NCBI GenBank assembly: GCA_019247695.1
Contig: JAFBAP010000047.1
Coordinates: forward strand, 1 to 47,172
Direction of reading: 5' to 3'
Origin: Verrucomicrobiota bacterium
GTDB taxonomy: Bacteria; Verrucomicrobiota; Verrucomicrobiia; Chthoniobacterales; JAFAMB01
DNA length: 47,172 nucleotides
A program made the position numbers and the translations under genes. This document shows positions 20,661 to 45,696 of this stretch, one piece after another. The notes under the pieces are model-generated. The model did no database searches, had not been told where the DNA came from, and was given only the letters and a program-made list of their open reading frames with translations. Position 1 is the first letter of the stretch. The number at the start of each line of letters is the position of its first letter.

Positions 20661-21508
20661 ATGGTAGATAGAACCTCCACCCAATACATTCTCGTTAAAG
20701 GCCAGCCCGGCCTGAAAGAAACCAGGTTTGCGCTGGGACCATCCTCTGTGAACTTTAAAGCTGAACCCCTTTTCCGAAGCATCGGGCAAGAGGGTGCGCT
20801 GGGGGCCGCAGCTGCTGACAAAACGTGGTACGCGTTCGAACCCTCGGTTCCGGTGGATCAGCCAAATTTATGGAACCTGTGCCACTCACGGGTGCAAAAC
20901 GGTTTAGGCGTTGCGGACGGAGCGATCGAGTTCGCGGAGCCCGATTTGCAGCAACAATGGATCGTGGGCGAAGAGGCAGGTCTTGGGATCGCGATGGCGA
21001 GGACGTGCGCGGTTGCGCAGGATCAGAACCAACACTACCCGACCGCACCCGATCCCTTCGGGGTCCGTGACGCTGACCACTCACAATTCGACGCTGCGCT
21101 CGCGGCTCGGACGGGCGCGTCCGGCGTGGCCAGGGTTCGTGTGGCCCATCTTGACACGGGGTACGACGCGGAGCACCGTGCCCTGCCCGGCCGCTTGAAC
21201 AAGGTCCTCCAACCTAATCTTGTCGATGCCGGCCGCCCGGACGATGCCTCCGACGACACCACCGGCACGTTGGGCATCCTGCAGCGCTCTTCGGCGTTGC
21301 TGGCGGCGCGTCCACCCAAGATGCCAATGAGCGGCTCGCGACCGCCGTCATTCCGGTGAACCACGAGATGGCTCTCAAAAAGAGGTGGGGCGAATGCCTT
21401 TGCCTGAACTCGTCGATGCTCTGCACGAGAGGGCGGCCAAAGGCGGGTTAAGGACCGATGAAGATTCCAAGGATCCGATCCAAGGGGTGGAAGTTGACCC
21501 GCTCTACT
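20661..21508 (+). pseudogene. truncated, internally deleted copy of the S8-protease/MBL gene pair
   Basis: From ATG 20661 (MVDRTSTQYILVK) about 200 codons match the first 200 residues of the intact protease gene at 31070, with scattered substitutions. At about 21267 the match breaks. Bases for the PFNNLGHGTG segment, which holds the catalytic His, are missing. After TLGIL the sequence jumps into the MBL gene (bases about 35250-35298), then across a second deletion to about 35911-36090. The second junction falls at GAGCGGCTC, present at both 35290 and 35911. The frame ends at 21359 with scrambled residues. Triad Asp remains; His, Asn and Ser are gone. Homology stops near 21508, where the insertion element begins. 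It is a non-functional relic of a cassette duplication. Confidence 0.85.
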
Positions 21509-23360
21509 TTGACCCATCTTAGACACCACAAATTTGTAAGTAACTGGCCAAGAAAGGGTTACAAAAGTGCAAAAACGCTTTGGCACTACATTTCGCCTTA
21601 CGCGGCCGGGGCGGAAATGTCGCGCAAGGTCGGCGGCGCGGCCGTCCCGGCGGCCCGCAAGGCCGCCAAAGCTTCCCCATTGAGCTGACTCCGAAGTAGA
21701 AAGCGGCGGCCCTGGTAGGTGAGCTCCGCTTCCTGCAGGCCCTCCAGGCCTCCAAGCACTTGGGCCCATTCGCTCGCCGCCTCGGCTTGCTTCAGGCGCC
21801 GCTCTAACTCCACCTTCAGCAGCAAGGCCAGGAAACTGCAAAAGACGTGCCCGCGGATGGCCGCGTCGCTTTGGTGGTAGATCGGTCGGGTTTCCAAGAT
21901 CGACTTGGCCGTGCGAAAGCTCTGCTCCACGGTCCACAGCGTCTTGTAGACGTGGGCGACGGTTTCCGCGTCATAGGCGGTGTTGGTCCGTAAAACCCAC
22001 AGCCCGTCGTAGCGCGCCTCGGCTTTGATTTGGGCCTCATCGATCTGGAAGTGACCCTCGCCCTCCACTTTCAAACACCGGCGGTAGCCCTTGTTGCCCA
22101 CCAGGCTCTTGTCGCCTTGGCGTAGTTGCTGCCGTAGGTGGGCGACAATGGCTTTGCGATCATGGGCGTCGTTACGACGCTCTTCCTCATTGAGGCAGAC
22201 CACGTAGCGGCGCTCCTCGACCCAGACTTCCTTGAGTTTGAGCGGGGCCGGATCTTTGGGGTTCTCCCGTTCCGGCACGCTCTCAAACCAACGGCCCCGA
22301 TGCCCCAGCACCTTGGTACTGACCTCCTTCTGGCGGCGCATGCATACCCCCACGATGTAACCCACCGGGGGCTGACTGCCTTCAAAGGCCGCCAGGATTT
22401 CTTGGCTGACCATGCCCCGGTCGGCCACCACCGTGACCTGCCGCAGGCCGAAGCGGCGCCGCAGCCGCTGCATGACCGGCACCAAGGTGGTGACATCGGC
22501 GGGGTTGCCCGGCCACACCTCGCAGCAGATCGGGTTGCCTTGCACATCGAGGGCCAAGCCTACGACCCTCTGGCGCAGGTCGGGCCGGTGGTCCTTGTTG
22601 AAACCCCGTTCGCCGAGCTCCTCCCCACCCTGGCCTTCGAAGTAAAGGCTGGTGGTGTCGAAAGAGACCAACTCCACTTCGGTGAACAGGTCGCGCCGGC
22701 GGTCGAAGAGCCGCTCTTCCAACACGTCTTTGGTGCAGCGCACCGGGCCGTTTGCGGGTTGCGCTTTGGCCGGCAGCGGCTCGCCCAAAAAGGCCATCGC
22801 CCGGTAAAGGTGGTGCAACCCGAGCCCTTCGGTGCCCGGCAGGAGGTAATCGTCGCGCCAACGTTCCGCCGCGCGGTCGCTGCCGCTGGCAAACAACCGG
22901 TGGAGTACGGTCAGGTAGATGGCCCCCGTTCGACGTCAAATTCGAAGCGCCGGCCTTTGAGCAGCGCGCGCAACGCTTCCGGGAGGCCGCTTTCTTGCCA
23001 CAAACGGCCGAAGACCAAGTCGGGCCCGATTCGGCGCACGGCCACCGGCTGGGTCCCACCGGCCGCATGGGCGTCTAGCACCGCCAAGCCCTCGCAGTGG
23101 CGCACCCCCGAGCGCATCAGCCGATCCAACTGGCCGCTCTGTTGCAATAGGTCGAGTCGGCCCAGCGTCGCGATGACCTGCTGGCGGACTTTCTTCCCTT
23201 CCCGGACGCTATGGGCAATCTGCAGGTATCGCTAGGTGCCGGCGGGTTTGACGCGGAAGAACATGGGGCGAGCGGCTTGGGTCTACCCCCAGCAACCACA
23301 CCCCGCGTGCCAACGCAATGAAAAAGGAGAGAGCGACCGAAGAATTTGCACTACATTTTC
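21509..23360 (-). mobile_element. degenerate IS1634-type insertion sequence
   Basis: The left edge is set where homology to the intact MBL gene ends (about 21508); the right edge is uncertain and lies upstream of the transposase start at 23264. Clear terminal inverted repeats could not be matched. Near-identical direct motifs, GGCACTACATTTCG (about 21584) and TGCACTACATTTTCG (about 23348), flank the coding part. The element interrupts or abuts the tail of the decayed cassette copy. Confidence 0.55.
21598..23264 (-). pseudogene. IS1634-family DDE transposase, two inactivating lesions
   Basis: Read from ATG 23264 the product begins MFFRVKPAGT, then meets an in-frame TAG as codon 11 (23234-23232), where relatives have a Tyr codon. 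It continues in the same frame as RYLQIAHSVREGKKVRQQV to about 22925. There a five-C run on the plus strand (22923-22927) marks a frameshift. The remainder (23 codons later onward, to 21598) holds the catalytic core: VSFDTTSLYF (first Asp), VVADRGMVSQE (second Asp) and the C-terminal VEQSFRTAKSILETRPIYH (Glu). Length without lesions would be about 555 residues, usual for the family. With a nonsense codon and a frameshift it cannot make active transposase unless one is a sequencing error. Confidence 0.85.
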
Positions 23361-25662: not shown

Positions 25663-28600
25663 TCAGCCCTTCACGCCTCTCCTCCGCCCCGGTTTTTCTC
25701 CATGTTCGGCTTCCCTGCATTGCCTTGAAGGTTTCCCTGCCCTCGCGATCCGGTAATCGGCGTAGCTCATTTCTGCACGTTTGAGCAGGGAGATTGATCC
25801 TTGCTCCTCTGCCATTTGGATGGCCTTGCTGAACGCGGCCTGGATTTCCATCTCGTCGGCACCCATCGCGGCCAGATACACCCCTCGAAACCGGAACAAC
25901 TCTGCGCACCACGAACGTTCTTCCGAGCTTTCGGCCACTGCTTCCGCCTCCCTGAGCGCCTCCAGGGCTTCCGAGGTACGATCCACAAGGTGCAAAGCTT
26001 CCGCCTTTATGACGAGCCAGGATGGCAGACCCAACCTCGTGCCGGTCGCCCGGTAGTCCCGCAGGCCGTCCTCAATCCACGCGATACCTTCTGCTGGATT
26101 ATCCGAAACGGTCCGCGCCCAGCCCCGGAGAATCCTGGCGCCAACCAGCCAAAACGCGAAATGCTGGCGCGTCGACAACTCCATCAATTCTGCCGCCAGG
26201 CGCTCCACTCGCGCATGGTCACGTACGCAGTACCCAAGGACCGCTGCAAAAAACAGTGCCTCGGCCAATGCAAACGTCTCATTCAGCTCCTTTGCCAGCG
26301 AGATGGCTGCCATCATGCTCGCGTGGCAGGAGGCAGTCTCACCTAAATGCCACTTGCAAAGGGCCTCAAAGTAAAAACACGGAACCGCGGGCGCACTTAC
26401 CTCCTCAACCGAAGACGGCGCATCTCCCGAACGCCAAAGCTCAATGCCGCGGCTCGCGTATCGGCACGCAGCCTTGAAATCACCTAGACGGTAGAGCGTG
26501 CATGCTAACGCACGATACGCGCCGATCAGCAGCGCAGCGTCATTCTGCTCCTGTGCAATCGAATGAACCCGTTGGGCGATCTGCATCGCGACCGTTAGCT
26601 TGTCGGTGCAAAGCGTAAATCGCCACTGGCCGGTCAGTGCAGAATACAAGGGCAGCGGACAAGCAAGCCCCTGGCACAATGCCTCCGCGCGCTCGTAGCA
26701 GCAGTGGGCCTCCGGTGCGGCCGACCCTCGCGTTGCCGTCAGGTAAAGCCCCGCTTGCATAAGGATGAAGAGCTGATCTTCCGCCGTGAGGGTCTGGCCC
26801 TCGGCACTGCCTTGCGCCAGGGATCCCCAATGGCCGTTTTCAAAAAAATTAGCTAAAACCGAGACCAATGCACCGCGTGCCCCGAGCACTTTTGCCGTGA
26901 AGGAAGCATCACCCCGCTGAATCCGCGGCAGGTAAACTTCGTGCAGCGCATCCCGATAAAACCCCGCCCGGCAGCCGCAGGCAACCGCCAGAAAGAGCGG
27001 CTCCATGTCCCGAAACGTTTCGGGCTGTTGCGGCGCCAGCGTCCGGTAATACCCATAAAGACGCCGGTTGCCCTCCTTCCAGGCATCCGCTCGCTGGCAC
27101 TGAAGCTGCGCTCCGAAGTATTCACGCACGAGCGGGTGCGCATCGAGTTGTCCCGGATGATACGGATCTTCGCCCGCCAGCAGCCTTGCCCTTCTTAACC
27201 GGGCCAGAATCATCCGCCACTCCGCGGGGCGTAAATCCGTCAGGGATTCCGTCACGCCTGGGATCACCGGCGGCGTCAACAAGGCCGCAAGCACTCTTTC
27301 ATCCGCCGGCCGGTCGAAAAAGCCTATCAGGCGCAGCACGGATAGCTCCGGACCTTCGCCGAACCAGCCTTGGTAGGAGGCCATGACCGTTCGCGCATGC
27401 GCGCCTTGCCGTACGTCATACGTCAGACGGCTTGAGACTTCATCCCGGCAACGAACGTCCCCGTGATACGCATCGGTCAGGTAGCTGCCCAGAAGGGTGA
27501 GCGCCAGACAGTGTCCCCCGAACTCTTCGCTGGCCCTTCGCAACTCCGGCTCCTCACCTTTGAGGCCCAACGCTCGCAGCAGCTGTGCACCGGCCTCGCC
27601 CGAGAGGTGTTCGAGGTCACGCCGCGGGGCGGAGCCGGACTCATAGCCGCCCAGGTCAGTGACTGCCATCCGGGTTGTAATGACACAAAGGCCCCGGTTG
27701 GACGCAGCCAGCTCGCGTATCAGCGCCTGGAGAGCGGGCTCGCGCAAGCGCCCTTCCTGGGGTCCGGGTGGATTCTGGAGCGGCTCCAAACCGTCAAGGA
27801 TTAATAAGGTAGGCTGCCGGGTGATGAGTCGCGCTAGACGCTCGCCCTTTTCCCAGGCTGTGCCAAGGCGGGGGTCCGGATCGCCGAACCAGTTCAGGGC
27901 CGCATCTAGAAACTCATCGGCCGAGGAAGCTTCCCCGCAGGTGCCTTGCCGGTAGAACGACCAGCCGAACACAAGCTCAGCCGAACGGTAACTCGCAGCG
28001 GCCATTCGCCGCAGCCAATGGTTAACCAGCGTAGACTTGCCTACCCCGGCCCAGGCCACAATCGTCACGATGTGGACCTGGGGGTTGGCCCAGGCGGCAT
28101 CCAGGAACGACACGTCCTCCTCGCGCCCAAAAATCTCTTTACCGGTTACAGGCAACCTGGCGATGGAAATCCTTCTTGGCCCCCGCCGCGAGGGCGGCTG
28201 TTTGCGAGTGAGGCTGCCCGGGCCGGTCTGGAGCACCCCGTTCAAGCCTTGGCGCCGGACGGAACGGTCCGGTTGGATCGCGCTCGTGATGCCCGGCAAC
28301 GCCTGCAGGAGTTGCGCCGGGCTTTGGAACCGCAACGCAGGGTCCTTCTCCAATAGCCTTTCAAGCAGAACCACGACCGGCTCCGGGAGCCCGTGGAGCC
28401 GGGCAAGCGGCAGGGGCGCCTGCAGGTGCTGGCGCATCACCTCAACCCGGGACCCACGGAAGGGTGGACGGCCGGTCAGCATTTCCCAGAGCGTCGCGCC
28501 CAAAGAGTACAAATCCGCACGCGCATCCACATCGACGCCCGTGAACTGCTCGGGGCTGGCAAAGGCGGGCGTGCCCACAAACCCGCCGTAGGTCAGGTTC

Positions 28601-29310
28601 GTCTCACCTGCACCGGCCACCGCCTTGGCCACCCCGAAATCGATGACCTTCACAAACAGCTCCGGTCCGTTGACCAGCATCAGGTTGGAGGGTTTCAAAT
28701 CCCGGTGCACCAACCCCTGTGCCTCCGCCGCTCCAAGTGCGCGGGCCACTTGCGCAGTTACCTCCAAAGCTTCCGATGTTAGCAAAGGCCCGCCACGGCG
28801 CACGCGCGCTTCGACGGTCTCGCCCTCGACGAGTTCCATCGCGTAGAAACATTGGCCATCAGCCTTGCGCACCCCGTAATAGAAGACCGAAGCCACATGA
28901 GGGTGCCGGAGCCGTGCGGCCGCACGCGCCTCGCGCAAAAACCGTTCCCGCGCCTCCGGGCGGGACGCCACCCGCGCGTCGAGCACCTTGAGAGCTACGG
29001 CGCGATCCAGAATGGTATCGCGCGCACGGTACGTAATCCCCATGGCGCCCCGACCCAGTTCATCAAACGCCCCATCCTTGCGTACACCAAGCTCGTAATG
29101 GTCAAAGCGACCTTCGTCAAAGGCAGCACCGCCTGAGGGCGGGACGGCGGCAGGGTTGAAAGCTTGCCGGAACAGGCACACGGGACAACCCGGCCCGTCA
29201 TTCTTCTGCAGGTAGGCCGTGCCGCACGCTGGGCAGCAGCGGGTCCGTCCGATCCCTAAGGCTTCCGAAGATGCCCCGGGCTTGGTCGAATGCGGCCGGC
29301 TCGGGTTCAT
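25663..29310 (-). CDS. zinc ribbon-Ser/Thr kinase-nSTAND NTPase-TPR protein
   Basis: This signalling protein has about 1215 residues (the frame opens further upstream at 29427). From ATG 29310 the parts are as follows. A CxxC...CxxC zinc ribbon (CPACGT; CPVCLF) lies at about 25-45. A Hanks-type kinase spans about 68-345: GRGAMGITYRA, VALKVL, HRDLKPSN, IDFGVAK and FASPEQ are all present. A STAND/NACHT-like ATPase spans about 390-760, with P-loop AWAGVGKSTL, Walker B PTLLILDGLEPLQ, and GWSFYRQGT after the P-loop. Helical TPR-like repeats run to the end. Such proteins sense a ligand through the TPRs, oligomerise by ATP binding and phosphorylate partners; the ligand and partners here are unknown. 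All catalytic motifs look intact. It is divergent from the MpaB gene. Confidence 0.85.
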   Translation of the reverse strand: MNPSRPHSTKPGASSEALGIGRTRCCPACGTAYLQKNDGPGCPVCLFRQAFNPAAVPPSGGAAFDEGRFDHYELGVRKDGAFDELGRGAMGITYRARDTILDRAVALKVLDARVASRPEARERFLREARAAARLRHPHVASVFYYGVRKADGQCFYAMELVEGETVEARVRRGGPLLTSEALEVTAQVARALGAAEAQGLVHRDLKPSNLMLVNGPELFVKVIDFGVAKAVAGAGETNLTYGGFVGTPAFASPEQFTGVDVDARADLYSLGATLWEMLTGRPPFRGSRVEVMRQHLQAPLPLARLHGLPEPVVVLLERLLEKDPALRFQSPAQLLQALPGITSAIQPDRSVRRQGLNGVLQTGPGSLTRKQPPSRRGPRRISIARLPVTGKEIFGREEDVSFLDAAWANPQVHIVTIVAWAGVGKSTLVNHWLRRMAAASYRSAELVFGWSFYRQGTCGEASSADEFLDAALNWFGDPDPRLGTAWEKGERLARLITRQPTLLILDGLEPLQNPPGPQEGRLREPALQALIRELAASNRGLCVITTRMAVTDLGGYESGSAPRRDLEHLSGEAGAQLLRALGLKGEEPELRRASEEFGGHCLALTLLGSYLTDAYHGDVRCRDEVSSRLTYDVRQGAHARTVMASYQGWFGEGPELSVLRLIGFFDRPADERVLAALLTPPVIPGVTESLTDLRPAEWRMILARLRRARLLAGEDPYHPGQLDAHPLVREYFGAQLQCQRADAWKEGNRRLYGYYRTLAPQQPETFRDMEPLFLAVACGCRAGFYRDALHEVYLPRIQRGDASFTAKVLGARGALVSVLANFFENGHWGSLAQGSAEGQTLTAEDQLFILMQAGLYLTATRGSAAPEAHCCYERAEALCQGLACPLPLYSALTGQWRFTLCTDKLTVAMQIAQRVHSIAQEQNDAALLIGAYRALACTLYRLGDFKAACRYASRGIELWRSGDAPSSVEEVSAPAVPCFYFEALCKWHLGETASCHASMMAAISLAKELNETFALAEALFFAAVLGYCVRDHARVERLAAELMELSTRQHFAFWLVGARILRGWARTVSDNPAEGIAWIEDGLRDYRATGTRLGLPSWLVIKAEALHLVDRTSEALEALREAEAVAESSEERSWCAELFRFRGVYLAAMGADEMEIQAAFSKAIQMAEEQGSISLLKRAEMSYADYRIARAGKPSRQCREAEHGEKPGRRRGVKG

Positions 29311-29582
29311 CATGGCGCAAGCTGTCCGCAAACTGCCAGGTTCGACGACCGGCCTGGCGTTGGCCCCCGCCTTTTGACATGGCCCACGCCGACCCGCCTG
29401 CGCATTCGGTCCCGGGCCATCGCCCATATACCAGATCTAACCGGTCGTTTCATAACGCCGCCGCAACCCCAAAAGGGTACAACCTCTTTGAAAAGCTGAA
29501 ACCTTGCCGGCCCGATTACTTTGTAATCCTTGAGCCGTCGATTCAACATTAGTGGGCTTGTCCCGCTTGGCAAATAACACCA

Positions 29583-30752
29583 ATGGATCGCGGATCTGCA
29601 ATCGCACTCAACCCGCTGACTATGACCTACTTTAGGTGGACCGATGAATTCCTCGATCCCATGCGACGCCTTGGGGACGAGCCCGCAGATCAACTTGTAC
29701 GGGCACTCTTCGCCGCGCAGCAGGTTGACGCCGTTAATTCAATGATGCGTGTCCTGGTCGGAAACGAAGCCATTCCGCCAGGATCAATTCCTGATGATCT
29801 CCGCCGATTTCTGGAATCCGTCGCCGTGTTGCCGCCGTGGGCGGACGTCGCGAAAATCCAGGCGGGGCAGCAGTTGTTCTGGGAGCATGGCCCGGCCATT
29901 GTCCTCCTTTTGCATTGCTACTCGCTGCCGTATTGTTATGCCGCCCGAAAAGGGGTCCAGGCCTTGGCGCTGACCGGACGCCTGAATACCAATCCCAGCC
30001 GACGCATTACCGAGACCGCCCAAATGTTGATGGATGTACTGTCACCAGGCGGGCTCACCGGTCCCGGTACCGGCATTCGAACCGTCCAGAAGGTTCGACT
30101 GATGCACGCGGGCGTGCGTTACCAGCTATTGCATTCGAACCAATGGAAGCCGGATTTCGACCACCCGCTTAATCAGGAAGATCTTGCGGGAACGTTGATG
30201 TCGTTTACCTGGATCACCTTGGACGGACTACGGCGGCTGGGGATCCATGTCAGCGAGGCTGAAGCCGAAGCTTACCTCCATTGTTGGAATGCGATTGGGC
30301 ATATTCTCGGGATTCGGCAAGAGTTGCTCCCGGCTGATTTAGCGGACGCTGAAGCGCTGACGGCAGCCTTCGAAAGGCGGCAATTTGCGGCGTGTGAGGA
30401 AGGCCGGTCCATGACCACGGCTTTGCTTGAGACGATGGATCACATTCTTCCGGGAAACGTTTTTGACGGCCTTTCCGGAGCACTTACGTATTATTTTATC
30501 GGCGACAATACCGCCAACCTGCTGGGAGTTAAACCGGTTCCGTTCGAGCGTGCGTTACTCCGGCCGCTGCAGTCGGCTAATCTGATCGCGGATGATTTTC
30601 TCGAAAGTTCAGGGTGGATGCAACAACTGGTCGCGCTCGTTTCCAGGCACCTCCTCGAGGGGCTCCAATTTACCGCGCGAGGCGGCAACCGGCCAAGCTT
30701 CAGCATCCCGACGGAACTTCGGCAGCGCTGGGGCATCAACTGGCGCTCTTGA
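29583..30752 (+). CDS. MpaB/DUF2236-family heme oxygenase-like protein
   Basis: This 389-residue protein belongs to the oxygenase MpaB (DUF2236) family, which includes the latex-clearing protein and fungal MpaB. Members bind heme b and oxidatively cleave or modify hydrophobic substrates. Recognisable features are HGPAIVLLLHCYSLPYCYA about residues 101-119, the central KVRLMHAGVRYQLL near 176, and MSFTWITLDGLRRLGI near 207-222. These carry the His and Arg residues expected at the heme and fit the usual length. No signal peptide is evident. It is separated from the protease cassette by a half MITE and the palindromic control site, so it is probably not in that operon. The substrate is unknown. 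Confidence 0.8.
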   Translation: MDRGSAIALNPLTMTYFRWTDEFLDPMRRLGDEPADQLVRALFAAQQVDAVNSMMRVLVGNEAIPPGSIPDDLRRFLESVAVLPPWADVAKIQAGQQLFWEHGPAIVLLLHCYSLPYCYAARKGVQALALTGRLNTNPSRRITETAQMLMDVLSPGGLTGPGTGIRTVQKVRLMHAGVRYQLLHSNQWKPDFDHPLNQEDLAGTLMSFTWITLDGLRRLGIHVSEAEAEAYLHCWNAIGHILGIRQELLPADLADAEALTAAFERRQFAACEEGRSMTTALLETMDHILPGNVFDGLSGALTYYFIGDNTANLLGVKPVPFERALLRPLQSANLIADDFLESSGWMQQLVALVSRHLLEGLQFTARGGNRPSFSIPTELRQRWGINWRS

Positions 30753-30826
30753 TTCGAGCACCCGCGGCCGCGGGGCCTCGCTTCGTGCGCGGTTTTCCGC
30801 CTTCAGATGCTTTCCGGATGATCTTG

Positions 30827-30970
30827 TACCATTCAAACAGTTATGTTGGTAGAACGCCGGCTCAGAGGGGTTGCCGGCGCCGGAGAATGCTCCGCACCTT
30901 GTTGAATTGGTCTCAGGCCCAACGGGCCGGCAGACCTTAGCCCACGAGGGTAGCAGCCCGGCGCCTCCGG
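30827..30970. repeat. left half of the MITE-like element
   Basis: TACCATTCAAACAGTTATGT (from 30827), GGTAGAAC and GGCCCAACGGGCCGGCAGAC match the left half of the element at 8179-8410. It ends just before the palindromes preceding the protease cassette. The decayed cassette copy at 20.6 kb lacks it, so this half element arrived on one side only. Confidence 0.55.
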
Positions 30971-30987
30971 GCTTGTCGGAAATTGGC

Positions 30988-31023
30988 CGAAACGTTTCGG
31001 GCCAATACGTATTTTTGCGTATT
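30988..31023. promoter_or_regulatory. palindromic control site upstream of the protease cassette
   Basis: A perfect palindrome CGAAACGTTTCG (30988-30999), extended by TGGC and GCCA flanks with one extra G, is followed by the inverted repeat AATACG (31004-31009)/CGTATT (31018-31023). About 45 bases separate it from ATG 31070. The block matches 20581-20660 almost base for base. It looks like an operator, with LacI-family-like symmetry, plus a second dyad; the cognate regulator is not in the window. Confidence 0.55.
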
Positions 31024-31069
31024 CCTGCGGGCCGGTGGCTCCTGTTATGCCTGGGAGTTGAAAGATAGC

Positions 31070-34000
31070 ATGGCAGATAGAACCTCCACCCAATACATTC
31101 TCGTTAAAGCCCGGCCCGGCCTTAAAGAAACCAAGCTTGCGCTGGGACGATCCTCTGTGAACGTTAGAGTTGAACCCCTTTTCCGAAGCATCGGTCAAGA
31201 TGGTGCGCTGGGGGCCGCAGCCGGTGACACAACGTGGTACGCGTTCGAACCCTCAGTTCCGGTGGATCAGCCGAATTTGTGGGACCTGTGCCACTCGCTG
31301 GTGCAAAACGGTTTAGGCGTTGCGGACGGAGCGATCGAGTTCGCGGAGCCCGATCTGCAGCAACAATGGATCGTGGGCGAAGAGGCAGGTCTTGGGATCG
31401 CGACGGCGAGGACGTGCGCGGTCGCGCAGGATCAGGACCAACACTACCCGACCGCACCGGATCCTCTCTGGTTCCGTGACGCTGACCACTCACAATTCGA
31501 CGCTGCGCTCGCGGCTCGGACGAATGCCACCGGCGCGGCCGGAGTCCGTGTGGCCCATCTTGACACGGGGTACGACGCCGAGCACCGCACCCTGCCCCGC
31601 CGCTTGAACAAGGTCCTCCAACGTAATTTTGTCGATGCCGGCCGTCCGGACGATGCTTCCGACGACACCACCGGCCCATTCAACAACCTTGGTCACGGCA
31701 CCGGCACCTTGGGCATCCTGGCAGGTTCAGCACCGGACGGGGGCAAACCGATCGGCGCCGCACCGGACATCGAGGTAGTTCCTATTCGCGTCGCCAACCG
31801 CGTGGTGCTCTTCTACAACAGCGCGATTGCCAAAGCGTTTGATTACGTTCACGGGCTGTGCCGGGATCCCGCCACTCGTATCCATGTGATCACGATGAGC
31901 ATGGGGGGCTTGGCGTCCCAGGCGTGGGCGGACGCAGTGAACGCCCTCTACGAGGCCGGCGTGTTTGTCGTGACGGCCGCCGGGAACAACTTCGGTAACC
32001 TTCCCACTCGCAATATCGTGTACCCCGCCCGTTTTGGCCGGGTGATCGCGGCCTGCGGGGTGATGGAAAACCATCAACCGTATGCGGACCTGGATCGCAA
32101 GCTGATGGCGGGGAATTACGGGCCGGAGAGCAAGATGAAGACCGCCTTGTCTGCGTGCACGCCGAACCTGCCGTGGGCGCGGCTGGGTTGCCCGCAGTTG
32201 GTTGACCACAACGGCAGCGGCACCTCGTCGGCCACCCCGCAAATCGCTGCGACCGCAGCTCTCTGGATTCAGCGAAACCTGCGGGCCTGGGAGGCTTATC
32301 CGGAAGGCTGGATGCGGGTGGCCGCCGTCCGCCATGCGCTCTTCAGCAGTGCGCACGCGATTGCGGACGAAGAGCGGTGGCTGGGCCAAGGTGAACTGCG
32401 CGCGCGCGACGCGCTCAACGTTCTTCCCGCCAAGGCGTCAGAGCTTCACCCGGAACCGGCGGATAACGCCCACTTTCCCCTCCTGCGCACGTTAGCCGGC
32501 CTCGGAATTGAGGCGGAGACGGACCCGAAACTTCGCATGCTCGAGCTTGAGGCGCTGCAACTGTCGCAATCGGCTGACCTGGAGGCGGTCTTACCGGACC
32601 CGGCACTACCGCCTGAGGCGGTCACACGCACCCAACTGCAGCAACTGGCCGAAGCGCTTGCCGCCCAACCGGGCGCATCGACCGCACTGCGGGACGCGCT
32701 CGGGGCCGCCGAGCGGAAAAACCGGACGGTGGTAGCCCTTCCACCTACCCTTCATCCTATCACCAACTCAGTCGAGAAGCTTCATCTTGAGCACGCCATC
32801 GAGCCTCGACCGCCGGTGCCCGCCCGCCGCCCGCTCCGGGTCTATGCGTACGATCCCTCACTCGCAACCCGCATCGAAACGTTCGGCATCAACGAGGCGA
32901 CGATCGAGATCCCTTGGGAAGACCTGGAACCGGGCCCGGTAGGCGAGTACATCGAGGTCGTTGACGTGGACCCTGCAAGCGGGTGCTGCTATGCACCGGT
33001 TGATCTGAATCATCCCCACCTGCTGACCCAGAACGGCTTGGCCCCGTCCGAAGGAAACCCGCAATTCCACCAGCAAATGGCCTACGCGGTGGCCATGCAG
33101 ACGATCGAACGGTTCGAGCGTGCACTCGGCCGCAAGGCCTTGTGGGCACCACGCCGGTTGCGGGGCTCTGACGGGCACGTCTGTGAAAATCGTTTTGTGC
33201 GGCGCCTGCGGATTTACCCCCATGCCCTCCGAATGGCGAATGCGTTCTATAGCCCGGACCGTAAGGCGCTGCTGCTTGGCTACTTTTCCGCCGCCGGAAA
33301 GGATCCGGCCAATGTGTTGCCCGGCGGATTGGTCTTCGGCGCGCTCTCACACGACATCGTGGCTCACGAGACGACGCACGCACTGCTCGACGGGCTGCAC
33401 CGGCGCTTTAGCGAACCGACTAACCCTGACGTTTTGGCGTTCCATGAGGCATTTGCGGACATCGTTGCGCTGTTTCAGCATTTCACCATCAAAGAGGCAT
33501 TGCGCCACCAGATTCGGCGTACCCGCGGCGACCTGCAACGGCACAGCCTGCTGGCTGAACTTGCCGTCGAGTTTGGCCAGGCAACCCAGGGCGGCTATGG
33601 AGCCCTTCGTGATGCGATCGGCAAATTCGAGGAGAAAGACGGCAAACAGGTTTGGACTCCCCATGAACCTGGCCGCAATGATTACGAAGCGTCCAGTGAA
33701 CCTCACGCGCGCGGCTCCGTGCTTGTATCCGCGGTATTCGCCGCGTTTCTGCAGATCTATCGCAGCCGGGCTGCCGAATTTGTCAGGCTCGCCACGGGAG
33801 GTAGCGGTATTCTGCCCGAAGGCGAGATCCCGGAATTCCTTGCCGACCGCCTGACGGAGGAAGCCGGAAAAGTGGCAGGCCACGTGCTAACCATGTGTAT
33901 CCGGGCCTTGGACTACTGCCCTCCGGTGGACCTCAGGTTCGGGGAGTACCTGCGAGCGCTCATCACCGCCGATCGAGACATCGTGCCGAACGACACGCGC

Positions 34001-34663
34001 GGCTATCGCGTTGCCTTCGTCTCTGCCTTCCGCGATCGCGGCATCTATCCCTCGGAGGTTAAACACCTTTCGGAGGGAAGCCTGATTTGGGAACCTCCGC
34101 CCCTGCCATTGCGAAACATCGACAACGTTCTGCGTGACATGACCTTAACGTGGGATCTCAACACGCAGCGGGAGGTAGCGTATCACACCTCGGAAGACAA
34201 TGCCCGTAAATTCTGGCACTGGCTCCGCTCGCCGCATCAGGTCCCGGATGATGAACTCACCGCGCTCGGCTTTTTCCGGGACGCACAGGACATGAGCATC
34301 GGCGACGTACCGGGTAAGCTCGGCGGTATTGAGGTCCACTCGGTGAGGCCCGCACGCCGGATCGGCCCCGACGGCCAGAGCCGGACGGATCTCGTCGTCG
34401 AACTTACTCAGACCTTTCGGCCATCCCCACCCAAAAACGGTACGTTCCGGGGCGGATGCACGCTCCTGATCAATCTCGAGGAGACGAACCCGGAATTCAA
34501 AGTGCGTTACTTCGTTCGTAAGCGGGTCGGCAGCCCCGACCGGATCCAAAGTCAGCAAAACTACACCCAAGCCATAACCCAGAATCACCGGGCTACCTAT
34601 TTTGACGATCCGGACGGCGGACGGGAACCGTTCGCGCTGCTGCATCAGCATCGATACGCTTGA
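31070..34663 (+). CDS. dual protease: subtilisin-type (S8) domain plus HExxH gluzincin-like domain
   Basis: This 1197-residue protein carries two peptidase domains. The first ~150 residues, with an acidic IEFAEPDL stretch, could be a propeptide or inhibitor-like region. The S8 domain (about 155-460) has D165 in HLDTGYD, H209 in LGHGTGTLG, oxyanion N306 in TAAGNNFGN and S386 in GTSSATPQIAATAAL. A helical linker follows, then a zincin (about 640-930) with HETTH at 766-770 and a third-ligand candidate E793 in FHEAFADIVALF, as in M4/M36-type gluzincins. The C-terminal ~270 residues are unassigned. There is no obvious signal peptide, so it may act in the cytoplasm. I chose ATG 31070 because the truncated copy conserves it. 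The MBL gene starts 17 bases after its stop, indicating an operon. Substrates are unknown. Confidence 0.85.
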   Translation: MADRTSTQYILVKARPGLKETKLALGRSSVNVRVEPLFRSIGQDGALGAAAGDTTWYAFEPSVPVDQPNLWDLCHSLVQNGLGVADGAIEFAEPDLQQQWIVGEEAGLGIATARTCAVAQDQDQHYPTAPDPLWFRDADHSQFDAALAARTNATGAAGVRVAHLDTGYDAEHRTLPRRLNKVLQRNFVDAGRPDDASDDTTGPFNNLGHGTGTLGILAGSAPDGGKPIGAAPDIEVVPIRVANRVVLFYNSAIAKAFDYVHGLCRDPATRIHVITMSMGGLASQAWADAVNALYEAGVFVVTAAGNNFGNLPTRNIVYPARFGRVIAACGVMENHQPYADLDRKLMAGNYGPESKMKTALSACTPNLPWARLGCPQLVDHNGSGTSSATPQIAATAALWIQRNLRAWEAYPEGWMRVAAVRHALFSSAHAIADEERWLGQGELRARDALNVLPAKASELHPEPADNAHFPLLRTLAGLGIEAETDPKLRMLELEALQLSQSADLEAVLPDPALPPEAVTRTQLQQLAEALAAQPGASTALRDALGAAERKNRTVVALPPTLHPITNSVEKLHLEHAIEPRPPVPARRPLRVYAYDPSLATRIETFGINEATIEIPWEDLEPGPVGEYIEVVDVDPASGCCYAPVDLNHPHLLTQNGLAPSEGNPQFHQQMAYAVAMQTIERFERALGRKALWAPRRLRGSDGHVCENRFVRRLRIYPHALRMANAFYSPDRKALLLGYFSAAGKDPANVLPGGLVFGALSHDIVAHETTHALLDGLHRRFSEPTNPDVLAFHEAFADIVALFQHFTIKEALRHQIRRTRGDLQRHSLLAELAVEFGQATQGGYGALRDAIGKFEEKDGKQVWTPHEPGRNDYEASSEPHARGSVLVSAVFAAFLQIYRSRAAEFVRLATGGSGILPEGEIPEFLADRLTEEAGKVAGHVLTMCIRALDYCPPVDLRFGEYLRALITADRDIVPNDTRGYRVAFVSAFRDRGIYPSEVKHLSEGSLIWEPPPLPLRNIDNVLRDMTLTWDLNTQREVAYHTSEDNARKFWHWLRSPHQVPDDELTALGFFRDAQDMSIGDVPGKLGGIEVHSVRPARRIGPDGQSRTDLVVELTQTFRPSPPKNGTFRGGCTLLINLEETNPEFKVRYFVRKRVGSPDRIQSQQNYTQAITQNHRATYFDDPDGGREPFALLHQHRYA

Positions 34664-34680
34664 AGAGGAACATAGAAAAT

Positions 34681-36108
34681 ATGGCCAAACCTGCAGCCGC
34701 AACCCGGACGCCGAAAGGCCGTCAGGCCGGGACCGCGACGCCTTCAAAGCCGCATGCCGGTGCCTCAACCGGGAAAGCATCAGCGTCCGCGCGGCGACGA
34801 AAAAACGCATTCCGTGCCACGATCCGGATGTATCGGCAGGGATTAGGCGATTGCTTCCTTATCACTTTGCCGAAATCCGGTACCCCGGAAGCTTATTATC
34901 GAATCCTTATAGATTGCGGCGTCATCCTCGGTACCCCGGATGCCGTGGCCAAGATGACTGAGGTCCTCAAAGACGTTGTCGCAGTATCAAAAGGTCAGAT
35001 CGACCTCTTGCTTGCCACCCATCAGCACTGGGATCATCTTTCCGGCTTTATTCAAGCGGCCGACACTTTTGATCGGTTGGAAGTTAAAAAAGTCTGGATG
35101 GCGTGGACCGAAAACCCGGATGATGACTTGGCAAAACAACTTGCAGGGGACCGTGATGCGGCCCTGACGGCGTTGCGTGCTGCGGGAAGCGGCATGCTCA
35201 TTTCAGGGGATTTGGACGGAGCCGATGAGGTGGCTGACTTTGCGGGGCTCTTCGGCGTTGCCGGCGGCGCGTCCACCCAAGACGCCATCGAGCGGCTCCG
35301 AAAGAAGGCTAAAGCGCCCGTTCGCTACTGTTATCCGACGGATGGCCCCGTTCATCTGGAAGCCCCGGACGTCCGATTGTACGTACTGGGCCCTCCCCAC
35401 GATCCCAAGCTCATCAGACAAACCCTGGATACCAAACGCGATCCGGAGACGTACGGGATCAGGGCTCAAATGTCCGCTGCGGCGGCCGCTTTGGAAACGC
35501 TGAAAGACGAGCCGGCGAGCCCGTTCGGCACCCTTCATGCGATCCCGATGAACGTGGCCTCCAGCTTACCGTTCTTCAAAAATCACTACTTTGGCGCAAG
35601 CCGCAGCGGTGACGAGTGGCGCCGGATCGACAGCGGTTGGCTCGACGGTTCGTCCGAGCTCGCGTTGGCGCTGGACAGTGCAACGAACAACACCAGCCTC
35701 GTTCTAGCCATCGAATTACGAGACGGTGATGTGCTGTTATTTGCTGCCGACGCGCAAGTCGGCAACTGGCTTTCGTGGCAGGATCTCAAGTGGACCGTGG
35801 GCGGCCGGGAGGTCACGGGTCCTGAACTCCTGAGGCGCACCGTCTTCTATAAAGTCGGGCATCACGGGAGCCATAACGCCACCCTTCGCCAGAAAGGTCT
35901 CGAACAGATGGAGCGGCTCGCAACCGCCGTCATTCCGGTGAACCACGAGATGGCTCTCAAAAAGAGGTGGGGGCGAATGCCTTTGCCTGAACTCGTCGAT
36001 GCTCTGCGCGAGAGGGCCGCCAAAGGCGTGCTGAGGTCCGATGAAGATCCCAAAGAGCCGATCCAAGGGGTGGAAGTTGACCCGCTCTACTTTGAGATTA
36101 CGCTTTGA
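34681..36108 (+). CDS. ComEC-like metallo-beta-lactamase-fold hydrolase
   Basis: This 475-residue protein has a basic, low-complexity N-terminus (about 1-45, Lys/Arg/Ala/Pro-rich) and an MBL-fold hydrolase of the ComEC/Rec2-like group. Metal motifs visible are THQHWDHLSGF near 113-123 and FKVGHHGSHNATL near 395-408, plus Asp-containing LIDCGVIL and LLFAADAQVGNW. Relatives cleave phosphodiester or related bonds. Comparable MBL proteins are encoded beside proteases and STAND ATPases in bacterial conflict systems. The start at ATG 34681 has AGAGGA about 12 bases upstream and lies 17 bases after the protease stop. Two fragments of this gene occur in the decayed copy at 21.27-21.51 kb. The substrate is not predictable. 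Confidence 0.85.
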   Translation: MAKPAAATRTPKGRQAGTATPSKPHAGASTGKASASARRRKNAFRATIRMYRQGLGDCFLITLPKSGTPEAYYRILIDCGVILGTPDAVAKMTEVLKDVVAVSKGQIDLLLATHQHWDHLSGFIQAADTFDRLEVKKVWMAWTENPDDDLAKQLAGDRDAALTALRAAGSGMLISGDLDGADEVADFAGLFGVAGGASTQDAIERLRKKAKAPVRYCYPTDGPVHLEAPDVRLYVLGPPHDPKLIRQTLDTKRDPETYGIRAQMSAAAAALETLKDEPASPFGTLHAIPMNVASSLPFFKNHYFGASRSGDEWRRIDSGWLDGSSELALALDSATNNTSLVLAIELRDGDVLLFAADAQVGNWLSWQDLKWTVGGREVTGPELLRRTVFYKVGHHGSHNATLRQKGLEQMERLATAVIPVNHEMALKKRWGRMPLPELVDALRERAAKGVLRSDEDPKEPIQGVEVDPLYFEITL

Positions 36109-36254
36109 CCGCCCAATGTTCCTCAACGGCCGGCCGATAAACAACCTCCTGCTCAACCGGATCACCTGGGCGGTCGCCCGCATGGATCCTTCTTCTGTGA
36201 CTCGAGGCACCCGCCCGACCCGCCGCCAGGGCGCACCAAGACTTCCCAAGCACA

Positions 36255-37130
36255 ATGAACCTCCAAATTACCAGGCGTCAGCAGGCCAATGCTACCATGC
36301 ATCGGCAGGCCGGTAGCCGTCAATGCTCAGCCCTAAGGTCCTTGTCCGCCGGCCTTTCGTCGATCAGGAGCTTCCTCCTTCCCGCCGTTCTCCTCGCCGT
36401 AACGACGCCGGGGATCCGCGCTCAAGATGCGCAAACCCCGCCTACGCTCACGGCTCACGATGTCTATACGCCCTCATTTCAGGCGCTGTTCACTCTCTTC
36501 ATCCTGGCCGTACTCCTTGAGTCAGGTCTCGCCATCATTTTTAACTGGAAGCTGTTTATCTCAACTTTTGACGCCAAGGCCACCAAGCCCTTGATCGCCG
36601 TCCTCGTCGCGAGCCTCTTTGTCTTCAGGTATAAACTGGACATCGTCACCAGGTTGGTAAATATCTACACGAATGCAGGCTACCCGATAAATTTTGCCGG
36701 GAAGTTCCTGACGGCCCTGGTGATTGCGGGTGGTAGTGCCGGGGTAAACAGATTGCTGCAGGCCCTGGGTTTTCGGTCTGTCCAGACGGAATCCCAGCCG
36801 CCGCCGAGGGTTCCACCGGCGGTAGCGTGGATTTCCGTCACTCTGAAGCGAGTAAAAGCAGAGGGGATGGTTAACGTCCTTGCCCGGCCGGACGGCAACT
36901 TCAGCCTGATCGGAACGATTTCCGGCCCCGGACTGGCCAATCCGCTCCTTCGATTCTTCTTCCAGGATCGTGCCCGGTTTCCGGGATCTGGCGGCCACAC
37001 CCTTGTGCCGGGAACGTGGGCGATTCAACTCGAAGGAGTCGACCGGAATGGAGCGGTCATCCAATCAAGACTCTGGGGACCTTACGCGATTGCAGCGGGT
37101 ACCATTATCGATATCGAGTTGACGTTGTAA
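36255..37130 (+). CDS. small multi-pass membrane protein with C-terminal soluble domain
   Basis: This 291-residue protein is not recognised. Residues about 40-57 form a signal- or anchor-like segment (SFLLPAVLLAVTTPGIRAQD). Then come helices about 73-97 (ALFTLFILAVLLESGLAIIF), 108-125 (PLIAVLVASLFVF) and possibly 145-165. The last ~105 residues are beta-rich (FSLIGTISGPGLANPLLRFFF; GTWAIQLEGVDRNGAVI), like an Ig-like or carbohydrate-binding sandwich. It lies 146 bases after the MBL gene on the same strand and may be the cassette's third, membrane-acting component. ATG 36297 is an alternative start. No homologous fragment is present in the decayed copy. Confidence 0.65.
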   Translation: MNLQITRRQQANATMHRQAGSRQCSALRSLSAGLSSIRSFLLPAVLLAVTTPGIRAQDAQTPPTLTAHDVYTPSFQALFTLFILAVLLESGLAIIFNWKLFISTFDAKATKPLIAVLVASLFVFRYKLDIVTRLVNIYTNAGYPINFAGKFLTALVIAGGSAGVNRLLQALGFRSVQTESQPPPRVPPAVAWISVTLKRVKAEGMVNVLARPDGNFSLIGTISGPGLANPLLRFFFQDRARFPGSGGHTLVPGTWAIQLEGVDRNGAVIQSRLWGPYAIAAGTIIDIELTL

Positions 37131-37616
37131 GTCGAGTACGACAAGGTAGAATGTCGGCTAGGGGGGTGCCGCCGCCCGAGGCTGCTCCGTAGCCGGTTGA
37201 ATCGCTCGTAGACCCAACGGGCCGGGGAGATCTTAGCCCAGGGTTTACCCGGGGAACGCCACCCCCCTCACCGTTGAGCCCTCCTAAGGCGCCACGTCCG
37301 TACGCCCATCCTGACAAACGCCCGCCCCGCCGGGTTGGATTTGCTCAAGGGGCGGCAGAAAATGCGAGCGACCCCTTCTGCCGGCCCTTCAGACCTCGGA
37401 CGAGCAAGAGGGCCGCCCCTTCGGGGCTAAAGCCGGCTCAACCATCCTGAGAAGGGGTGTAGGAACCGATCCGGACTGCGGTGCACACAAAGTGCACAAA
37501 ACCAAATGAACAGCCGCATGTAACCCTGACGTGCAAGTACCGCGAATGGAGCCGAATCATCGTTAACCGGGCAGCATTCTTCCGGGGCGGACAACTGCAG
37601 TTAGCCCATCCAGGCC
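37131..37616. repeat. repeat-rich convergent intergenic region
   Basis: This stretch of about 485 bases lies between the ends of the membrane protein and giant kinase genes. It contains scattered modules of the MITE-like element: AAGGTAGAATGTCGGC (about 37143), AGACCCAACGGGCCGG (about 37210), CTTAGCCCAGGGTTTACCC (about 37234) and CGCCCCTTCGGGGCTAAAGC (about 37411). An ACCATCCTGAGAAGGGGTGT module is shared with 20.45 kb. No gene is supported. Confidence 0.55.
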
Positions 37617-40600
37617 CTACTGATGATCCTCCTGGGGCGTCACCTCAGAAAAAGTTACCTCATGCACTCGCAACCATTCCCGTGCGGACGGAATCCCCGC
37701 GGTGGCCGCCTGTTTTATCCAGCCTACGGCCTCGGTGCGGCGGCCCGGCTTCTCGGCGATCAGAAGGCCATAGAAATACATGCTTAACACGTTGCTATGC
37801 TCTATGCCTTCTTTATAGAGCTCCTCTGCCTTTCCTTCATTCTTTTGCATGCCGCCGAAGCCTTTCTCATACAACTGGCCAAGGTGCGCCGCGGCGTTCC
37901 AGTCCCCCTCCGCGACCGCCCGTTCCCACCACGGCTTGGCTTGGCTGTAAAACGCGTCTGCCTGGGCCATGAGCTTCTGTTTGAGTGACCCTGTACTGTG
38001 TCCCGCTTCGACTTGTTTGTCTTCCGCCTTGTATTGGAGTATCCGGCCGGCTAACACCATCGCGGGAACGACGCCTTGGCTGGCCAGAGGCAGGATGATC
38101 TTTTCAGCTTTCTGTACATCTTGCTTTGTCCCCCTGCCACTTAAGTAACAGTCGCCGATGTATGCGCCGGCTTCCAGATTTGGTTTTGGGGCGGTATAGG
38201 CCCGGTTAAGCCATGCAAACCCTTCTTTGTCGTCGTCCGGAGTCCCTTTTCTGAAATAGAATCGGCCGACTCTCATCATAGCATAGGAATCGCCCAGGTT
38301 GGCCGCGCGAAGGAACAAGTCAAACGCCTCGGGCCCATTCTCGTTGGCGGCCAGCCACAGAATGGCCGGGAGAATATTCAAGTTCGCCGCGTCTCTGATG
38401 CTTGATCCGTAAGAGAGGCTGAATTCATCCCCGCTGATCGGAGGCACCTTGGTTCGGAGCTCTTCGATAACCTGTCCAAGCTCGTTGTACTCTTGGGGAT
38501 TGGGCTGTCCAGGCCGCGTCAGGGCCTGCACAAGCCGCACGTAAGCATTGAGGAATTGCGGAGAACCTCTTTCAGACTTTTTGACCTCATTCCGTAAAAC
38601 TTCGATGGGATCCGGCTGGAGCGTCAGGACGATCCGGGGCGGGGTCGCTCGATCCAGTTGTAATTCCTGCTGCGCCGGCAGGTACCCTGGCAGAGTGGCC
38701 GTGAGTTCATGGCGCCCAAACGGGACGCGGGTAAAGGTGTTCGGCGGCTGCTGGGGCGGCCTGCCGTCCAGCGACACCGAGGCACCGGGCGGCTGGGTCT
38801 GCACCGCTAAGGCCGGCAACTCAGTCGCAACGGGCTGCAGCATCAGGCGCAACTCCGGGCTCATTCGCTCACGAACCTCCAGCTCCTGGCTGAGCGGCTC
38901 ATAGCCGTCCAACGTGGCGGTGAGCCGGTGATGCCCGAAGGGCACATGGGTGAAAGTATCGGGCAGCTGCTGGGGCGGCTTGCCGTCCAGCAACACCGAG
39001 GCGCCGGCCGGCTCCGTTTGCACTGATAAGGCTGCAAGTTCGGTGGGAACCGGCTGGAGCGTCAGGACGATTTGGGGCGAGGTCGCTCTATCCAGGTTCA
39101 ACTCTTGTTGCGCCGGCAAATAACCTTTCAACGCAGCCGTGAGCCGGTGGTACCCAAATGGCACGTGGGTAAAAATGTTCGGCAGCTGCTGGGGCGGCTT
39201 GCCGTCCAGCAGGAGCGAAGCGCCCGCCGGCTCGGTTTGCACCGTCAGGGCCGGCAACTCGGTCGGAACGGGCTGCAGCGTCAGGCGCAACTCCGCGCTC
39301 ATGCCTTCATGCACCTCCAGCTCCTCGCTGAACGGTTCATAGTTGTCCAGCGTGGCGGTGAGCCGGTGCCGCCCGAACGGGACGTGCGTAAAAGTGCCGG
39401 CCGGGCTTTGGGGCGGCTTGCCGTCCAGTAACACCGAACCGCCCGCCGGTTCCGTTTGGATCGAGACCGCGGCAACCTCCGTCGGAACCGGCTGAAGCGT
39501 CAGGACGATCCGGGGCGGGGTCGCTCTATCCAGTTGCAATTCCTGCTGCGCCGGCAGGTACCCCGGCAAAGTGGCCGTGAGTTCATGGCGCCCAAACGGG
39601 ACGCGGGTAAAGGTATTTGGCGGCTGCTGGGGCGGCTTGCCGTCCAGCAACACCGAGGCACCGGCCGGCTGGGTCTGCACCGCCAAGGCCGGCAACTCAG
39701 TCGGAACGGGCTGCAGCGCCAGGCGCAGCTCCGGGCTCATGCCCGCACGGACTTCCAGCTCCTGGCTGAGCGGCTCGTAGCGGTCCAACCTAACCGTCAG
39801 CCGGTGACGCCCGAAGGGCACATGGGTGAAAGTGCCGGGCGCCTGCTGCGGCGGTTTGCCGTCCAGCAGAATGGAAGCGCCGGCCGGCTCCGTTTGCACC
39901 GTAAGCGCGGCAACTTCAATCGGAGCCGGCCGCAGCGCCAGAACGAGTTTTCGTGGGGTCACTCCATCCACCTGCACGTCTTGACGCGCCGGCAGGTATC
40001 CCTTGAGGTTGGCGGTAAGCCGATGGTGCCCGAACGGGACACGGGCAAAACGGTGCGGTGCGCTTAACGAGGGCCCTTCGTCCAGGGTAATGGCGGCGCC
40101 GGGCGGATCGCTTTCAACCGCGAGATCCGCAAACTCGGGAAGCGGCGGTGGCGGTGCCTGAGACCGGTAAACGACGTAACCACCAATTCCCACGCACGCC
40201 ATCAGGCCGGCTGCCAACGCCAAACGCCGCGCGCCCGCTTTCTTGGGTTTGGCTGGGCGCTCGGCCGGAATTTCCACCGGCGCTATCCGGGGCGGCCCCG
40301 GGGGGACGCGCCTCACGCTTTCAGAGGCGGATGCCGCCGTCCCCGTCACGCCAACTACGGCCGCCAGTTGCCGGGCTAACTCGCTTGCAGACGGCCATTC
40401 ATTGATCACCCCACGCCGCAACGCAGCGTTTGCACCTTCAGTCAACGTTGCCAGAGGCGTGTACTGCCCCGTTGCCTCCAGCCGGGCCCGCAGTCCCCCC
40501 AGCAACTCGTACGCCAGTAGACTCAACAAACGCACGTAACTGCCCCGGGAGCCACCTTCCACCGCGCCGTGCACCCGGGTTGCCGGACCTGACCCCGTGC

Positions 40601-45597: not shown

Positions 45598-45604
45598 TCG
45601 GTCG

Positions 45605-45609
45605 CCTCC
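45605..45609 (-). promoter_or_regulatory. Shine-Dalgarno GGAGG setting a TTG start
   Basis: GGAGG followed by CGACCGA and then TTG (45597-45595) is an ideal spacing of 7 bases. It decides the start of the TIR-like/SLOG gene in favour of TTG over the upstream GTG. Confidence 0.7.
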
Positions 45610-45696
45610 ACGCACGCAGGCTAAGCCGGATAAACCGGGCACTGCAAGTTTAGGGCTGAAGGTGAGAGGCGTTCGGGCCGAATATCTCGCCTCGAT

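Follow-up and report, generated by a model that had tools for sequence, protein, structure and literature searches.

A conserved gluzincin–MBL gene pair with exchangeable partners as a candidate bacterial conflict system

Analysis of a three-gene cassette in a Verrucomicrobiota bacterium (GCA_019247695.1) revealed that the conserved unit is a pair of genes, encoding a gluzincin metalloprotease and an MBL hydrolase, and not the three-gene trio. The cassette lies in what we call the window, i.e., the whole stretch of DNA analyzed, which is one entire contig of 47,172 nt (G000:C47, JAFBAP010000047.1). The pair looks like an undescribed immune or self-destruct switch. We hold, with a little more confidence than doubt, that it is the core of a modular conflict system, most likely anti-phage by host shutdown, in which a gluzincin metalloprotease is combined with an MBL pro-nuclease of the ComEC type. 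A fuller version, put forward tentatively and with somewhat more doubt than confidence, is that of a widespread, undescribed immune system. In it, a metalloprotease of a new family would open a gated MBL pro-nuclease at a Pro-Phe dipeptide, and a swappable second killer enzyme (phospholipase or S8) as well as a dedicated membrane protein would be coupled to this protease, such that one proteolytic trigger would hit DNA and membrane or protein together.

The pairing itself was examined at 79 loci from different species, drawn from the best 80 of at least 549 gluzincin relatives in a collection holding one genome per species. In 77 of the 79, the gene immediately after the gluzincin encoded an ORF2-family MBL, with the contig ending at one exception, although the 80 fetched relatives are those closest to the query and hence a biased sample. 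The median gap from gluzincin to MBL domain was about 29 bases. The pair is also present in four relatives from the window's own order, which were identified independently and are as little as 35% identical. An earlier note on this DNA had proposed a protease–MBL link, had taken the trio as a module and had named homologues occurring mostly as unlinked single genes as the finding that would count against it. The link is borne out, as the homologues are mostly linked (77/79 loci), and so is the modular behavior, with the pair kept while its partners swap; the trio as a unit is not, as ORF3 is optional and S8 is just one among the parts that swap.

The features of the cassette are collected in Table 1. 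The S8 domain of ORF1 matched PF00082 with 85.1 bits (Pfam cut-off 21.8) and has the D/H/S triad. In an alignment of 34 homologous fusions, D165, H209 and S386 as well as N306 were invariant, as were H766-E767-x-x-H770 and E793/D797 of the gluzincin. Since the catalytic residues are invariant in all 34 homologues, both protease sites are genuine and under selection. The structure model of the S8 domain matched subtilisin and pro-subtilisin folds (E = 1e-12) and includes a propeptide-like N-terminal region, and these two features of the model suggest that the window S8 may be a protease held inactive until triggered. By sequence, the nearest solved protein is an intracellular serine protease. 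A Pfam search returned zero matches across the gluzincin region (the second half of ORF1), which displays weak thermolysin similarity around HExxH. An EAD2 adaptor in the linker was considered and rejected (20.0 bits against a cut-off of 23.8, in 1 of 34 homologues). The earlier description of two complete protease sites in one protein, an MBL hydrolase gene 17 bases downstream and a membrane protein as the third gene agrees with these data: S8 exceeds its cut-off and both catalytic sets are invariant, ORF2 starts 17 bases past the ORF1 stop and exceeds the Lactamase_B cut-off, and ORF3 has three hydrophobic segments, its beta-rich tail being a judgement from sequence only.

Table 1. Positions in the window of the cassette genes, their domains and motifs, and the decayed duplicate
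Feature	Position (nt)	Strand	Description
Decayed duplicate	20661..21513	+	ORF1 residues 1-220 joined to MBL C-terminal residues
ORF1	31070..34663	+	1197 aa, single open frame, ATG at 31070; domain order: N-terminal beta-alpha-beta propeptide-like region, S8 subtilase, helical linker, gluzincin metallopeptidase, C-terminal beta/helix domain
S8 subtilase domain	31457..32449	+	ORF1 residues about 130-460; triad D165, H209, S386
Helical linker	32462..32809	+	ORF1 residues about 465-580; helices in model; sub-threshold EAD2 resemblance
Gluzincin domain	32822..34039	+	HETTH 33365-33379, HEAFAD 33443-33460; no Pfam family
C-terminal helix and four long antiparallel strands	34118..34600	+	Conserved together with the gluzincin
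ORF2	34681..36108	+	475 aa MBL hydrolase, ComEC nuclease fold; 17 bases downstream of ORF1
ORF2 motifs	35020-35037; 35749-35751; 35860-35877	+	HxHxDH; D357; HHGSHN
ORF2 disordered, length-variable loop	35464..35634	+	Residues 262-318; Pro281-Phe282 at 35521-35526; proposed gating loop and cut site
ORF3	36255..37130	+	291 aa membrane protein, conserved family, C-terminal tail

ORF2 matched Lactamase_B with 28.7 bits (Pfam cut-off 22.7), and its residues H114, H116, D118, H119, D357, H394 and H395 were invariant among 52 MBL homologues. Alignment with Lamassu-type MBLs by hhalign (probability 95%, E = 2.5e-8) extended over 306 columns and covered all motifs, and weak matches to LmuA, RTasMBL and Avs1a were found. 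Judged from these similarities, ORF2 is a divergent relative of the Lamassu-type MBLs within a wider clade of defence MBLs. The ORF2 model (pLDDT 85) had as its top solved fold the ComEC beta-lactamase-like domain 9ic4 (E = 1.2e-9, TM 0.74 of target), relative to which it contains about 180 extra columns. One alternative retains the conflict system but has the MBL degrade a signal molecule or lipid rather than act as a gated nuclease, with the proteases as direct effectors. The sequence similarity of the MBL is indeed partial, weaker matches include RNase Z, lactonase and, for a relative, Apyc1, and lipases are the commonest partners of the pair. Nevertheless, we consider this alternative unlikely, as the ComEC-type nuclease is clearly the top fold match and the nearest defence MBLs with published tests act as nucleases (PMC12799240).

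Within ORF2, the first insertion is ordered and helical in the structure model, i.e., there is no second loose loop, while pLDDT is 52–60 over most of the loop listed in Table 1 and residues 265–320 are poorly ordered. Loop length ranges from 48 to 112 across the family, and Pro-Phe is present in 52 of 52 members with variable neighbors on both sides; PF or PLF is kept in the most divergent ones. Such a pattern would be expected of a gating loop with a conserved cut site, but Pro-Phe could be structural instead.

Protease-activated MBL nucleases were demonstrated in 2025 for trypsin and caspase partners. According to Tuck et al. 2025 (PMC12799240), disordered insertions bearing conserved residues keep the MBL nucleases of Hachiman and AVAST closed until a partner trypsin opens them, and caspases act likewise on the canu MBL nuclease, the layout having been shown biochemically for HamM, Avs1a and CanC. 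The main text mentions nucleases with "other diverse" proteases and does not name a gluzincin; our literature search for the gluzincin–MBL combination yielded nothing beyond this paper, whose supplement (fig. S2) may show the pair. Compared with the gated pairs described there (HamM, Avs1a/b, Lamassu and DRT), the present pair likewise has a separate MBL gene adjoining a protease gene, an MBL homologous to the Lamassu type with a ComEC nuclease fold and insertion(s), and a protease that occurs within fusions and is exchanged between settings. Its one disordered loop, with a conserved dipeptide, may be the counterpart of their gating insertions, the other insertion being ordered. In contrast, the protease here is a gluzincin (plus S8) and not trypsin-like, the MBL belongs to a separate clade and its gene lies downstream instead of upstream, the conserved element is Pro-Phe instead of Ile, and no STAND, HamB or RT is fused. 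As in canu, a non-trypsin protease gene lies upstream of the MBL nuclease gene, but the caspase with its Ig-like fold and CanB are absent.

The comparison with AVAST-type MBL–protease sets drawn in the earlier note points in the right direction, given the weak LmuA, RTasMBL and Avs1a matches and the Lamassu-type similarity. ORF2 was nonetheless rejected as an AVAST Avs1a (30.5 bits, far below the cut-off of 420), and the trypsin-like protease and STAND NTPase of AVAST type 1 are absent from the cassette, which instead has S8 and gluzincin in ORF1 and a membrane protein in ORF3; the NACHT protein nearest to it is a divergent kinase gene. The SMC-like ATPase partner of Lamassu, LmuB, is also absent, there is no ATPase among the constant neighbors of the pair, and no NTPase sensor was constant across the pair loci. 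PDC-M48, a PADLOC candidate and by its name an M48 peptidase system, also HExxH, has an MBL component that weakly matches ORF2 (E = 1.6e-4) and a relative (E = 7.9e-9), but ORF1 matches none of the PDC-M48 models. The EAD/MoxR-vWA and NucA-trypsin-S8 systems (Kaur et al. 2020, PMC7159879) similarly combine several peptidases with a nuclease and swap effectors, and two plasmid copies of the pair adjoin genes like theirs; unlike the present set, no MBL, patatin or subtilisin–gluzincin fusion is described in that text, and EAD2 is below cut-off here. Finally, the gluzincin shares the HExxH...E arrangement and weak similarity around HExxH with thermolysin (M4), but the PF01447 cut-off is unmet (no match for ORF1, best relative 18.1 versus 22.4 bits) and the MBL neighborhood is conserved. 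The gluzincin half and ORF3 are without a name in Pfam, NCBIfam and PADLOC, and none of the three recognizes the pair, which is therefore invisible to current defence annotation, though relatives occur at more than 500 places (one genome per species).

From these comparisons we infer cleavage of the MBL, its nuclease activity and a defence role, as follows. In the resting cell, the ORF2 loop would cover the MBL active site. A trigger would be sensed by the attached part, namely S8 with its propeptide-like N-terminus in the window and TPR-S, CHAT-NB-ARC or nothing recognizable elsewhere. The gluzincin would then cut the loop at or beside Pro-Phe, as in the trypsin–MBL and caspase–MBL pairs, and the cut MBL would be a released nuclease, while S8, patatin or other lipases would attack proteins or the membrane and ORF3 might tether or sense at the membrane. 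Thermolysin-like enzymes favor a hydrophobic residue after the cut. If this is true, a third, unrelated protease class would have its own MBL clade in at least 12 phyla, including an archaeal bin, and a single cassette would link nuclease activation with lipase and second-protease effectors.

It is also conceivable that activation of the MBL in the window version falls to S8 rather than to the gluzincin. S8 is conserved with its triad intact, and Pro-Phe suits subtilisin specificity as generally known, Ala-Ala-Pro-Phe being a standard subtilisin substrate. However, Pro-Phe is equally invariant at loci without a fused S8, which makes the gluzincin the likelier cutter of the loop, and we regard activation by S8 as quite unlikely.

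We then considered the partners of the presumed gluzincin–nuclease pair. In a tree of 85 gluzincins, the N-terminal fusions comprised S8 (38), an LCAT-like hydrolase, i.e., a lipase (3), and the TPR-S sensor (2), with the "stand-alone" class overcounted since some of its rows start at a contig edge. These labels require at least 11 changes on the tree, of which at least 5, for S8, are unavoidable given the well-supported branches. A patatin-like phospholipase was encoded by 12 of 38 adjacent upstream ORFs versus 2 of 804 other neighbors, one of these two lying directly downstream of the MBL. Neighbors seen once were a Tle1-like phospholipase, a CHAT-NB-ARC-TPR protein (CHAT below cut-off), a stand-alone S8 and a papain-like (C1) protease, and plasmid loci add a phospholipase D, DUF2235 and a caspase near the pair. 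The partners are mostly membrane-attacking or proteolytic enzymes. At locus L113 (1354–9629), two consecutive gluzincin–MBL pairs have a stand-alone S8 protease between them.

ORF3 has no match in Pfam, NCBIfam or PADLOC. Its family is characterized by a TM region (LESALAVIFNWRxF), a second hydrophobic stretch, AGGSxGVNxLLxALGFR and a C-terminal tail. Among 72,556 plasmid records, 16 carry the family (versus 36 with the gluzincin), and in 7 of these 16, one twin strain counted, the two lie no more than 10 kb apart. A Rhizobium etli plasmid has S8-gluzincin, MBL and ORF3 in the window order with overlapping genes; in R. phaseoli the order is gluzincin, MBL, patatin, ORF3; and at L041 and L046 ORF3 lies just upstream and divergent. 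The only other intact S8-gluzincin and MBL pair of the genome (contig C48) is without ORF3. Because ORF3 is found near the pair on several plasmids and loci yet is absent elsewhere, it is part of the system but optional. On a Paroceanicella plasmid (L124, 6332–11934), a patatin, an ORF3 homologue, a 713-aa S8 protease and an MBL unmatched by the ORF2-family model form a cousin S8–MBL set that has ORF3 and patatin in common with the present system. ORF3 homologues on rhizobial plasmids (L120, L122, L127 and L128) are often near peptidoglycan hydrolases (cell wall hydrolase, lysozyme-like, GH25, amidase and DUF2272).

Those wall hydrolases, together with the Tle1-like and patatin lipases, would fit an inter-bacterial antagonism set with exported lipases, peptidases and wall hydrolases and a holin-like ORF3. 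This we regard as very unlikely: ORF1 and ORF2 are predicted to be cytosolic, because a signal peptide or membrane segment is absent from both by hydropathy, the nearest solved S8 is intracellular, VgrG, PAAR and an immunity gene were absent from the operons read, and defence genes are neighbors.

Consistent with the conflict system that we favor, the neighbors of the pair on plasmids include CBASS and Hachiman (two plasmids that are 90–96% alike and were counted once), CBASS with an AAA/HNH pair, SIR2 proteins elsewhere, MoxR-type conflict operons with trypsin/NucA (two plasmid copies), and S8/ATPase and ThiF genes (one plasmid). Specifically, 117 neighbors of the pair matched 158 PADLOC families versus 22 matched by 97 proteins elsewhere on four of the same plasmids, a ratio that is no more than indicative as the models overlap. 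Some plasmid neighborhoods were ordinary, and one control region held Shedu and IetAS. A reading of the set on the two Hachiman plasmids as a Hachiman variant was rejected, since the adjacent HamA keeps GExK and is without a fused protease, and Hachiman was taken as a neighbor. The suggestion that the cassette be looked for in defence islands thus had a divided outcome: several plasmid relatives lie in such islands, but the window copy is outside any classical defence island because the left 25 kb of the window contains ordinary genes.

The pair was found across at least a dozen phyla. Its hosts include Pseudomonadota, Acidobacteriota, Planctomycetota, Verrucomicrobiota, Bacteroidota, Chloroflexota, Armatimonadota, Myxococcota and Thermodesulfobacteriota as well as one Methanosarcinales bin (archaeal), with plasmid matches in Deinococcus and a cyanobacterium. 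Presence is patchy, with matches in 4 of 388 genomes drawn across the phylum (about 1%), two of them full length. Of the 36 plasmid records with the gluzincin, 20 are conjugative plasmids. In the 85-gluzincin tree, the window copy groups with Rhizobiales copies and the C48 copy with Methylococcales and Pyrinomonadaceae copies, and since these are different clades, the two pairs (59%/56% identical) were probably acquired separately. A phage origin was rejected, since 50,697 phage records gave two matches and IMG/VR gave one, located at a contig end. A housekeeping or peptide-maturation role, in which the proteases process a peptide and the MBL is a processing enzyme, is the least credible alternative, since the weak similarity of S8 to PatA/PagA maturation proteases is set against the patchy presence, exchange between phyla, swapped partners and conjugative plasmids, and a precursor gene was not found in the operons read.

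Two further claims about the window did not hold up. The unit had been described as locally duplicated, but the second copy is a degenerate chimera, i.e., a degraded duplicate of the window copy: 20661–21320 matches ORF1 residues 1–220 at 80% (protein) and 21329–21513 matches only the MBL C-terminus. The MBL pieces of this remnant (21280–21390) meet at a shared GAGCGGCTC, as if deleted between short repeats. The proposed palindromic control site, CGAAACGTTTCG at 30988, offers no evidence of control, because the 47 kb contains 20 perfect 12-bp palindromes including this one, which recurs at the remnant through duplication and is also found inside a kinase gene. Just beyond each cassette end (30867–30930 and 37162–37225) there is a copy of a 64-nt direct repeat (78%), perhaps a border or perhaps an intergenic repeat that occurs genome-wide. 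Two large Ser/Thr kinases are encoded on either side of the cassette, at 25663–29427 (−) and 37617–43079 (−), one with NACHT and one with seven PEGA repeats and Sel1. Farther right, 43597–45642 (−) encodes a protein with a TPR-S sensor domain (72.5 bits), as is also found fused to the gluzincin in L089 and L095, and with an N-terminal part that is TIR-like by eye, and transposase-like frames occupy the right contig end (46049–47170, −). Elsewhere in the same genome (G000, contig C152, about 30650–33173; L131), a CHAT-like (caspase-fold) N-terminal part, recognized by eye, and a C-terminal Lamassu-type MBL (LmuA, E = 1.9e-65) form a caspase–nuclease fusion in one chain.
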